Positions 24,979 to 28,182 of a stretch of 64,000 nt of DNA are shown piece by piece. The notes below the pieces were generated by a model. That model saw only the letters and a list, made by a program, of their open reading frames with translations. It was not told the DNA's origin and searched no databases. Both the position numbers and the translations under genes were made by a program. Source of the DNA: Thioalkalivibrio sp. ALE31 (GTDB lineage: Bacteria; Pseudomonadota; Gammaproteobacteria; Ectothiorhodospirales; Ectothiorhodospiraceae); the NCBI RefSeq assembly GCF_000377405.1, contig NZ_KB905020.1, positions 1 through 64,000 of the forward strand, given 5' to 3'. Each line of letters begins with the position of its first letter. Within the stretch, counting starts at the first letter, position 1.

Positions 24979-25166
24979 GCCAGACGTAGACGCAGAAGGG
25001 GGCGGGGAGGTTCCCGTGCCATGTCGGTTCGGTAGCCGCCACACCGAGGTTGGTACATGCGGCCCGGTGACTGCCTTTCGTGATCGGCGGGAGTCGCGAC
25101 GTCACGGGAACGCGATCACGGAAGACTTCTGCGCACTCCCTTGTTCAACACGGAGGTAGCACGCGC

Positions 25167-26207
25167 ATGCATCGAAGAAATTTCTTGAAGGGCGGGATGG
25201 CGCTGTCCGCCGGGTTCGCGATTCCGGGCACGATGGGCCTGCTGGCCTGGGCGCCCCGGGCGCACGCCGAGGAGCTCAGCATTGATCTGACGGCACGGCG
25301 AGGCGACGTGACCATGATCGATGGTACGTCGGCGCGGATTTTCGGCTTTTCTGCCACGGGGGCGATGTCCTGGCCGGGTCCGACCCTGGTGTGCCAGGAG
25401 GGCGACACCATCACGGTCAATCTGCAGAACACGCTGCATACGCCGGTGGTGTTCCATGTCGGGGCCACCAATATTCGTTATCAGGCCAGTGCGCAGAACA
25501 ACATCTCGTTCTCGTTCTCGGCGCCGCCGGCGGGTACGTACCTGTACTACGACGACCAGAACAATGGCGTCAACCGGATCATGGGCCTGCACGGGGCACT
25601 GGTGGTGATGCCCGCGGGGATCAAGGATCGGCCGTTCATTGGCGGACCGCAGTTCGTGCGCCAGTACAAGTGGCTGTTCAGCAATGTGGATCCGGCGTGG
25701 GGCGAACAGGTCCGCAACCTGGGGGATTACCAGGTCAGCTCCATCGACCCGGACAGCTTCGATCCGCGCTATTTCACGATCAACGGGCATGCGTACGAGA
25801 ACACGCACGAGTACAACACCGAGTTGATGGGCCACTACGACGAGGCGGCCTATGTGCGAATGCTGAACGCTGGCGGGATCGTCCATGCCCCGCACTTCCA
25901 CGGGAACCACGTGGAAATGGTGACGATCAACTACGAGCGCTTCAGTGCCCCGTTCAAGAACAAGGATGCTGTTTCCATGTTCCCGCTGGACGTGCGCGAC
26001 GTGATCTATCCGTTCAAGGCTCCGCCGGATGCCTATCCGCCGGTCTCCGCCAATCAGATCCAGCACTTCCCGATGCACTGCCATTCCGAGATGTCGCAGA
26101 CCGCGGGCGGGGGCTCTTATCCCCACGGCGCACATGCGCCGATCGTGATGGGGGCGGCGCCGTCGATGGAATCGGATCTGACCCAGAAAGTGGATGACCT
26201 GTCCTGA
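25167..26207 (+). CDS. Tat-exported multicopper-oxidase-like subunit A
   Basis: A 346-residue cupredoxin protein. A twin-arginine signal (HRRNFLKGG..., to about residue 34) predicts folded export. The N-terminal cupredoxin domain (about 37-160) has lost the usual HxHG and HxH copper ligands (FHVGATNIRYQ and YLYYDDQNN stand in their places). The C-terminal domain keeps H240-x-x-H243-x-H245-G and H304-C-H306, but the loop after HCH (SEMSQTAGGGSYPHG) is not the usual HxxxM type 1 site. The start ATG 25167 is preceded by GGAGG. Subunit B follows after 44 bp. Taken alone the ligand set is half of a multicopper oxidase. Substrate unknown. Confidence 0.8.
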   Translation: MHRRNFLKGGMALSAGFAIPGTMGLLAWAPRAHAEELSIDLTARRGDVTMIDGTSARIFGFSATGAMSWPGPTLVCQEGDTITVNLQNTLHTPVVFHVGATNIRYQASAQNNISFSFSAPPAGTYLYYDDQNNGVNRIMGLHGALVVMPAGIKDRPFIGGPQFVRQYKWLFSNVDPAWGEQVRNLGDYQVSSIDPDSFDPRYFTINGHAYENTHEYNTELMGHYDEAAYVRMLNAGGIVHAPHFHGNHVEMVTINYERFSAPFKNKDAVSMFPLDVRDVIYPFKAPPDAYPPVSANQIQHFPMHCHSEMSQTAGGGSYPHGAHAPIVMGAAPSMESDLTQKVDDLS

Positions 26208-26251
26208 TACAAGTTCGGCGCAACCAACGGATTGAAACGGAGCACAAGATC

Positions 26252-27310
26252 ATGAGCAGAAATCGAGACGGCGGTGGCATGGGTGGCGGCGGTATGGGCG
26301 GTGGCTGCGATGCCGGTATCACCGGCAATTGCGGCCTGCATATCGACGCCCCGAATACCCCGAACCGCGTCACGCCCGATGTGGAATTCTTCCTGAACAC
26401 CTTCATGCAGGGCAGCCAGATCATCAATGGTGTCGAGGTCCCTATCTGGGGCTTCAACATGGATGGTGGTATGGGTGGTGGCGGCATGGGCGGTGGTGGT
26501 GGCGGCATGGGCGGTGCCATGCCGTCCCCGCCGATGCGCGTGCGCCAGGGGCAGATCGTGCACACCCACCTCAATGCGATGGCGATGATGGCGCCGCACA
26601 CGGTCCACCACCATGGCATCGAGCCCGATACCTTCAACGACGGGGTCGGTCACTACTCGTTCGATGTACTCGGGGAGTACACCTACCAGTGGCGGGCGTC
26701 GCAGGCGGGTACCTACTTCTACCACTGTCATACCAACACCGTTCTGCATGCCGAGATGGGGATGTACGGTGCCCTGATCATCGACCCCCCGAGCGGTCCC
26801 GGCACCGTGTACGAGGGTGGACCAAGCTACACGGTGGAGGCGATCTGGGCCGTGGACGACATCGACATGAACTGGCACTGCCTGCCCTGGGATTCCGCTC
26901 TCTGCGGGGGCGACGCGGGGTTGAATGACTTCAACCCGGAGATCTTCTGCATCAACGGGATTGGTGCGGATCTCAGCGAGACCGATCCCTCTGTGGTGGT
27001 CAACGCAAGTCGCGTGGACCGGGTCCTGCTGCGCTACATCATGGCGGGCTATGTCCCGCAGCGAGTGCGTTTTCCGGCCGAACTGGGCCCGATCCAGGTG
27101 GTCGCGGAGGATGGCCGGCCGCTGCCGCAGATCGAGACCATCCCGGCGGGCGGGGAGATCCTCATGACCTCCGCGGAACGTTACGACCTGATCTTCGAGC
27201 CGCAACAGGCGGGCTCGTTCCCGGTCGATATCGATTTCTTCGACTATCGGGCCGCGAACGGCATGCTGAAGCCGATCGGGTCGATCCGCACGCGGTTCAA
27301 TATTTCCTGA
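26252..27310 (+). CDS. Multicopper-oxidase-like subunit B with Gly-Met repeats
   Basis: A 352-residue cupredoxin protein with no signal peptide. Two Gly/Met-rich segments (about residues 8-18 and 70-90, GGMGGGG-type) resemble the Met-rich copper(I) loops of CueO and PcoA. The first cupredoxin domain has H119-x-H121-G and H158-C159-H160 followed by H166 and M169/M171, which can supply both trinuclear and type 1 ligands. The second domain (about 190-350, AELGPIQVVAEDGRPL..., RYDLIFEP) resembles the copper-free middle domain of laccases. With subunit A it would complete four HxH motifs. Export is probably by riding with the Tat-signalled A subunit. Confidence 0.8.
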   Translation: MSRNRDGGGMGGGGMGGGCDAGITGNCGLHIDAPNTPNRVTPDVEFFLNTFMQGSQIINGVEVPIWGFNMDGGMGGGGMGGGGGGMGGAMPSPPMRVRQGQIVHTHLNAMAMMAPHTVHHHGIEPDTFNDGVGHYSFDVLGEYTYQWRASQAGTYFYHCHTNTVLHAEMGMYGALIIDPPSGPGTVYEGGPSYTVEAIWAVDDIDMNWHCLPWDSALCGGDAGLNDFNPEIFCINGIGADLSETDPSVVVNASRVDRVLLRYIMAGYVPQRVRFPAELGPIQVVAEDGRPLPQIETIPAGGEILMTSAERYDLIFEPQQAGSFPVDIDFFDYRAANGMLKPIGSIRTRFNIS

Positions 27311-27396: not shown

Positions 27397-28182
27397 ATGC
27401 GACAGTTTTACAAATGCCTGGTCATGGCGGTCTGCCTTTCGGGTATGGCGGGCCCCGGCCTTGCCGATGACAGCGACAAGCGAGCGGAAGCCCTGTACCA
27501 GGCGGTGGCCAGCGGTGACACGGAACGGGTGCGTGATCTGATTGACGGCGGCGCCGATGTGAATCGCGCCCAGCGGCCCTGGGAACTGACCCCATTGCTC
27601 GTGGCGGTCGGCCTCGATGCGGAGCTGACGGACCTGCTGATCCGTGCGGGGGCGGACGTGAACGCGCGCGAGCGCGAGGGGGTAACAGTCCTGATGAAGG
27701 CCGTGCACGGCGGTGATGCAGCCGTGGTCCGGCGGCTCCTGAAGGAGCCGGCTCTGGACGTGGATGCAAGGGGCCCGAGGGGTAATACCGCGCTGACTTA
27801 CGCCGTCCTGTATGGATATGCGGACATGGTGGCGGCACTGGTGGAGCAAGGGGCGGATGTGGATGTCGTGCGCGCCGATGGCACTACGCCGAAAGGGATT
27901 GCGCGGCACATGTACGCGCTGGCCGAGGCCATGCCCGGAGAAGAGGGGGAGGATGCGTCTCCAGGCGGTGCCCACGCCCATCATGGGCGCGGGACGCATG
28001 AGGTCCGCCATGATCCGCCGCATGAGGGTCCCCATGATCATCACCGGAGCCGCGCCGAGGCGGTGTCTTCCCATGGGCGCGTGCTCGGGATTCTGGTCGA
28101 GGCGGGGGCCTCGGTCGAGGGGGAGAAGGACACGCCGGCCGAGAGCCGAGGCGCTGGGGGGCATGGCCATCACCATCATTGA
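27397..28182 (+). CDS. Exported ankyrin-repeat protein with His-rich segments
   Basis: A 261-residue protein with a signal peptide (MRQFYKCLVMAVCLSGMAGPGLAD). Ankyrin repeats run from about residue 30 to 170 (AVASGDTERVRDLIDGGADVN, LLVAVGLDAELTDLLIRAGADVN, ALTYAVLYGYADMVAALVEQGADVD). A His-rich insert at about 190-225 (HAHHG...HDPPHEGPHDHH) and a C-terminal GHGHHHH end follow. Metal binding is strongly suggested. The start ATG 27397 is preceded by GGAGAAG. It probably acts in the periplasm beside the oxidase as a metal-binding scaffold or chaperone. Confidence 0.8.
   Translation: MRQFYKCLVMAVCLSGMAGPGLADDSDKRAEALYQAVASGDTERVRDLIDGGADVNRAQRPWELTPLLVAVGLDAELTDLLIRAGADVNAREREGVTVLMKAVHGGDAAVVRRLLKEPALDVDARGPRGNTALTYAVLYGYADMVAALVEQGADVDVVRADGTTPKGIARHMYALAEAMPGEEGEDASPGGAHAHHGRGTHEVRHDPPHEGPHDHHRSRAEAVSSHGRVLGILVEAGASVEGEKDTPAESRGAGGHGHHHH

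Follow-up and report, generated by a model that had tools for sequence, protein, structure and literature searches.

In the textbook view of multicopper oxidases (MCOs), the four-copper site needs only one kind of chain, acting alone or as a homotrimer. CueO and PcoA (CopA) are three-domain single chains that are exported by the Tat pathway and carry Met-rich segments. Six-domain MCOs leave most of their cupredoxin interfaces without trinuclear copper, and in the Mnx complex, where other chains join MnxG, the copper sites are all held by MnxG itself. Copper nitrite reductases are two-domain cupredoxin trimers, with a single type 2 copper between chains and no eight-histidine set. Two different chains in one MCO occur in the fungal heterodimeric laccases of the POXA3 type, where copper ligands are not common to both chains. 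The nearest relatives of the genes described here are two-domain MCOs (2dMCOs) of the class that we take to be type C. According to the accessible part of one report, POXA3-type laccases gain stability and activity from their second chain, a small protein (PMC10741624). Published 2dMCOs are described, in the accessible parts of two papers, as homotrimers (PMC13151041, PMC3192119), with a trinuclear site to which one monomer contributes its domain 1 and the next its domain 2 (PMC13151041). A search of open-licence PMC papers for a heteromeric, heterodimeric, heterotrimeric or split MCO of the kind presented below found none; the accessible passages name a “pcoAB” of Thiobacillus denitrificans (PMC11963766), considered as a possible match to the present genes, and mention type C 2dMCOs of an archaeon, with nothing heteromeric in those passages (PMC11561398).

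The window analysed here, a stretch of 64,000 nucleotides from Thioalkalivibrio sp. ALE31, contains two genes, A and B, that point to such an arrangement. They lie on the same strand, with 44 bases between the stop of A and the start of B, whose ATG is preceded by GGAG. The coding sequence of A runs from 25167 to 26204 plus the stop codon, taking the start of its Tat signal as the beginning of the protein (the list of open reading frames begins A at 25080 with GTG), and that of B from 26252 to 27307 plus the stop. The Pfam family Cu-oxidase_3 is detected in both proteins. The features of the locus are as follows.

25167..26207, + strand: gene A, 346 aa, two cupredoxin domains with the domain 2 half-site; no HxH in domain 1
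25167..25268, + strand: Tat-type signal peptide of A (RRNFLK ... AHA, residues 1-34); RR motif in homologues
25893..25901, + strand: H243-x-H245 of A, conserved in 82/82
26076..26084, + strand: H304-C305-H306 of A; no type 1 site
26252..27310, + strand: gene B, 352 aa, two cupredoxin domains with the type 1 copper and the domain 1 half-site
26270..26305, + strand: Gly-Met-rich N-terminus of B, residues 7-18
26465..26521, + strand: Gly-Met-rich loop of B, residues 72-90
26597..26614, + strand: H116 (type 1) and H119-x-H121 of B
26723..26731, + strand: H158-C159-H160 of B, trinuclear histidines flanking the type 1 cysteine
26747..26764, + strand: H166 to M171 of B, the remaining type 1 ligands
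27397..28182, + strand: ankyrin-repeat protein downstream of B, with a signal-like N-terminus and a His-rich C-terminus

The original prediction held that each protein keeps two of the four HxH motifs of a laccase-type trinuclear site, and the residue numbers it gave are exact for both. HxH occurs in A solely at 243-245 and 304-306, both in domain 2; domain 1 has lost its ligands, the positions aligned to H119, H121, H158 and H160 of B being H, G, Y and D, with one lone histidine and no HxH. B carries the reciprocal set: its first domain has HxH at 119-121 and 158-160, with an extra H104-x-H106 upstream of them, together with the predicted type 1 ligands (H116, C159, H166 and M171), and the positions of its domain 2 that align to the four histidines of A are R, P, D and D, again without HxH. 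The observed motifs are confirmed, and the class is better named type C 2dMCO than laccase. Like the type C enzymes, the pair has two cupredoxin domains per chain, a type 1 copper set in domain 1 and the same HxH and HCH motifs, and single-gene relatives (L024, L028) show a similar domain 2 pattern, HxHGH and HDHxD; unlike them, it divides the four HxH motifs between two genes instead of holding them in one. A type 1 set in domain 1 with none in domain 2 is found in B and in the pair, not in A alone, and four HxH motifs in one polypeptide occur in neither A nor B, only in the fused forms described below. By alignment, then, the ligand set of A and B together is that of one type C 2dMCO. No NCBIfam cut-off is reached by either protein: against the copper resistance family copper_res_A (TIGR01480) A scores 28.9 and B 62.9 bits (cut-off 478.95), and against Cu_nitrite_red (TIGR02376) 25.8 and 36.7 bits (cut-off 296.3). 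Sequence matches of both to copper nitrite reductases are weak.

How widely does this partition hold? A pattern scan based on an alignment of ten A proteins, run on a collection with one genome per species, gave 79 loci from the best 80 of 238 relatives; three plasmid loci bring the set used for conservation to 82 A and 74 B proteins. Within this set H243, H245, H304 and H306 of A are each present in 82/82. H116, H121, H158, C159, H160 and H166 of B are found in 74/74, and H119 and M171 in 73/74 each, one B having Asn at H119. This bears out the half-site and type 1 set of B in all but isolated cases, and the partition goes beyond chance. In the ten-row alignment of A the invariant stretch PMHxHxE..QT..GG.Y..G (residues 302-321) extends beyond the copper ligands. 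A type 1 site in domain 2 of A, built on C305 and H240, was considered and rejected: in the same 82 proteins position 305 holds Leu 61 times and Cys 21 times, position 240 holds His 46 times and Gln 32 times, and the second type 1 histidine is absent. The adjacency of the two genes is likewise general. B lies directly downstream of A in 74 of the 79 loci drawn from the best 80 of 238 relatives (a few B are cut), the contig of the other five ending 49-189 bases past A, and the spacing across 73 pairs is -32 to 151 nt.

Because H304 and H306 are part of one of the two patterns behind most of these loci, the search was repeated with a pattern-free HMM. At E 1e-30 the distribution is patchy, with matches in 25 of 369 genomes drawn from the class; 30 of the 33 matches listed were examined, the window's own included, the others being one in G355 and two in G283 (110-118 bits). 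Both A motifs are present in 29/30 examined loci, the exception (L145) being a draft gene with a frameshift in which such a motif is present in another frame. A B-like gene stands beside A in 29/30, and both B motifs are found in 28 of these 29 B, the last being cut. The locus without a B-like neighbour (L008, in G082) has an A-like gene with no B within the 662 bases left on the contig. On another contig of the same genome, two B-like genes (L118, L119) lie side by side near the contig end. A table of 57 aligned rows shows the same division from both sides: the full domain 1 set is present in 24/24 B and both domain 2 motifs in 22/23 A (L145 again excepted), A never has more than one of the four trinuclear histidines of B, and B never more than one of the four of A (L126_B1 has one). 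Single-gene MCO homologues in the table carry both halves in eight of nine cases, the ninth (L121) being misaligned in one motif.

Such retention bears on the possibility that A and B form a non-catalytic complex for copper storage or delivery, in the manner of inactive MCO-fold proteins. SufI illustrates that the MCO fold is able to lose its coppers, and the Gly-Met segments and copper chaperone neighbours of the pair would suit a storage role. Storage needs neither a type 1 nor a trinuclear site, and the ligands of both are kept nearly without exception in distant members, so that we regard this reading as very improbable.

Fused forms, which the original prediction had proposed to look for, do exist. 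In a draw of 396 genomes from the phylum to which G790 belongs (G790 carries the Acidimicrobiales MAG locus L108), one genome, G800, has two copies of an A-then-B fusion, L167 and L170, as open frames of 792 and 830 aa from stop to stop. All four HxH motifs are retained in each, at 311, 386, 517 and 566 in one and at 349, 424, 555 and 604 in the other. A third fusion lies on an Arthrobacter plasmid and has a frameshift within its B part.

Could each subunit nevertheless be an enzyme of its own? The two would then be adjacent only as co-regulated paralogues, each forming its own homotrimer, with B serving as a type 1 electron carrier and A being a copper protein with an odd ligand set. Their 2dMCO relatives are homotrimers in the accessible text of two reports (PMC13151041, PMC3192119), and A and B both match cupredoxin MCO sequences. 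Separate homotrimers leave unexplained why each protein strictly retains half a trinuclear site, and are further opposed by the fusions, by the absence of a signal in B and by the short spacing between the genes. A complete homotrimeric enzyme in either subunit, which the original prediction had named as an outcome that would overturn it, is contradicted by the ligand losses in both A and B, and we give this alternative very little credence. A working enzyme most likely exists only when A and B join. The whole explanation that we favour with considerable confidence is that A and B are the two obligate halves of a single multicopper oxidase, exported and descended from the type C 2dMCOs.

Structure prediction bears on this arrangement from another side. 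A and B were modelled as a single AlphaFold chain, at loci where B is in frame and with the stop codon of A read as Gly; single-chain AF2 yields no interface score. The model of L086 (96-row alignment) has a mean pLDDT of 90.9 and a pTM of 0.89, and that of the divergent homologue L106 (47 rows) 81.3 and 0.84; both show two cupredoxin domains in each of A and B. Both align over their entire length, with the domains in ceruloplasmin order, to residues 1-697 of human ceruloplasmin (4enz), which we take to be its domains 1-4: L086 over 512 residues at 4.2 A (Z 26.2, 16% identity) and L106 over 510 residues at 4.1 A (Z 23.4). Foldseek on rat ceruloplasmin (5n0k) gives a looser fit, with TM 0.63 at 7.4 A for L086 and TM 0.52 at 9.6 A for L106. 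The B half of the L086 model finds its best matches among 2dMCO structures, 3g5w (Z 26.9, 2.0 A, 259 residues) and 2zwn (Z 26.5). If residues 1-697 are indeed domains 1-4, the modelled contact between A domain 2 and B domain 1 would match that between domains 2 and 3 of ceruloplasmin, presumably the pseudo-equivalent of its trinuclear interface. The modelled domain order fits, only indirectly, the expectation that the motifs of the predicted complex meet at one interface, and the ceruloplasmin arrangement may attract any four-domain cupredoxin chain. Ceruloplasmin and other six-domain MCOs such as MnxG (9bxa) differ from the pair in having six domains in one chain, against four in two chains of 346 and 352 aa.

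Under the favoured explanation, a type C 2dMCO would have been duplicated, after which A would have lost the half-site of domain 1 and B that of domain 2. The ligands, the fusions and the models suggest that the trinuclear site would be made solely by A domain 2 and B domain 1. By analogy with the family, electrons would enter at the type 1 copper of B (H116, C159, H166, M171) and cross the His-Cys-His bridge to three coppers held by H243, H245, H304 and H306 of A and H119, H121, H158 and H160 of B, where O2 would be reduced to water. A, carrying the Tat signal, would take B out as a passenger. The substrate could be periplasmic Cu(I), the likeliest candidate in view of the neighbours and the Gly-Met segments, which would make the enzyme a copper-detoxifying cuprous oxidase.

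The HMM search places the window in one clade of a larger group, whose four parts we call clades I-IV, the window belonging to clade I. Clade II (L139, L149, L150, L151) has an A-like gene followed by B, with the same partition in other motif contexts, and so has clade III (L140-L142, L144, L145, L008), except that L008 lacks the following B. Clade IV (G054, L114; G122, L153; G147, L154) has the gene order B-A-C, its B and A showing the partition of the window pair. C has no HxH in its visible part, and is complete only in G054, being cut by the contig in G122 and G147. The three adjacent genes of G054 lie at 143-1606, 1504-2835 and 2856-4160 of L114, on the minus strand; its C is a two-domain cupredoxin-like protein, adjoining a 1730-aa repeat-rich protein. 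G887 likewise has the order B-A, up to the contig end.

In a tree of these 57 chosen rows, a branch (94/90) sets all 24 B rows apart from the rest, the A rows and C form one group (97/96), within which the 20 A rows of clades I-III have 100/98, and the nine single-gene MCOs form a third (99/97). With the ligand columns removed, the A and B groups of clades I-III hold (A 95; B 93, a value not starred), and A, B and C stay apart from the single-gene rows (95), the A and B rows of clade IV falling together. An AU test on the alignment without ligand columns does not reject A plus C (p 0.476) or B (p 0.529) as single groups, and on separate trees of domain 1 and of domain 2, A and B require two changes apiece. 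Since the A and B groups hold in clades I-III, the A/B split looks older than these clades and would afterwards have been inherited as a pair.

Alternation of A and B is impossible in a ring of three, so the enzyme of the two-gene form would have to be either a four-domain A-B arc or an uneven or larger assembly. A third chain would solve this alternation problem, and the B-A-C loci with their ligand-less C suggest a three-chain ring. These observations open a broader reading, tentative and in our estimate short of an even chance, of a widespread heteromeric MCO class in which the homotrimeric 2dMCO has given way to different chains, each retaining one useful interface. The B-A-C form would then be a six-domain ring with a single trinuclear site, in effect a disassembled ceruloplasmin, and the two-gene form would hold one trinuclear site per A-B pair.

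In clade I the signals of the two proteins fit the division of labour proposed for export. That of A scores 20.3 bits against Pfam TAT_signal, below the cut-off of 22.7. By crude regex and hydropathy criteria, a twin-arginine motif is present in 80/82 A and a hydrophobic or RR start in 0/73 B (both counts from the best 80 of 238 relatives plus plasmid loci), and the proposal that only A has a Tat signal survives on these terms. The two A that miss the motif are L043, which is truncated, and L107, which has a hydrophobic N-terminus. The A proteins of L107 and L108, both from Acidimicrobiales, have long N-terminal extensions with hydrophobic stretches replacing the plain Tat start. For clade I the simplest reading of these sequences is that B travels as a passenger of A. 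Elsewhere, clade III A proteins have RR motifs, and three clade III B are without signal, others being of RR type (L144, L023). In clades II and IV, where starts are intact, A and B look Sec-type, but G887 carries an RR motif in its B. In the G800 fusions no signal peptide could be recognised in frame, which does not fit simple Tat export.

What does the pair oxidise? Neighbouring genes link A-B loci to copper, and the pair shares Tat-type export and Met-rich segments with CueO and PcoA. Of the 62 loci that extend at least 1.5 kb past B (from the best-80-of-238 set), 11 have a CusB-type adaptor directly downstream of B, on the same strand and no more than 130 nt away, and so does L059, with 1.3 kb past B. 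A CusA-type pump is the following gene in 10 of these 12 loci (Pfam assignments from one representative each). SCO1-type proteins account for two neighbour clusters, each of 3 loci, and PCuAC for another of the same size. The suggestion that the Gly-Met repeats of B feed copper(I) is weaker, since they are frequent and not universal, with a segment in the loop of 58/74 B and at the N-terminus of 50/75 (window included; best-80-of-238 set). These neighbours and segments favour Cu(I) oxidation, and we put the chance that Cu(I) is the substrate at about even.

We think it somewhat less probable that the split oxidase acts on another substrate, such as Fe(II), Mn(II), a phenol or an inorganic sulfur compound. 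CusB lies beside B in just those 11 of 62 loci, some members have no Gly-Met segment, and several of the named hosts are, as we understand their physiology, sulfur or iron oxidisers. At least four A-B loci (L109, L110, L112, L113) are present in Skermanella aerolata, which suggests diversification, a further point for other substrates. Against these substrates, the copper neighbours recur (CusB, CusA, SCO1, PCuAC), and 0 of 10 annotated neighbour families, which make up a minority of clusters, is an iron, manganese or sulfur gene. In the window itself the next four genes encode the ankyrin protein, an ArsR regulator, a lipoate ligase-type protein and a TonB receptor, with no copper efflux. The His-rich ankyrin protein adjoins A-B only among near relatives, at six loci in five of them (one genome has two), and is at most an accessory.

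In the other draws matches are likewise patchy at the same threshold of E 1e-30: the phylum draw gave a match in 1 of 398 genomes, namely the window's own, and the phylum of G790 in 3 of 396. The best 80 of 238 relatives fall in records titled as several bacterial phyla. A plasmid of Paenarthrobacter aurescens TC1 (L032) has A and no B on the same plasmid record. A search of viral contigs for relatives of A found none.

If the split is as proposed, gene-by-gene searches for laccases and copper oxidases would take both halves for degenerate proteins and overlook the enzyme, and no activity would be expected on expressing only one of the two genes. The B-A-C form would be the stage expected between homotrimers and single-chain six-domain oxidases, and its ligand-less C makes that step testable. 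The A-B pair would then be a natural case of duplicates made mutually dependent through an active site at their interface.
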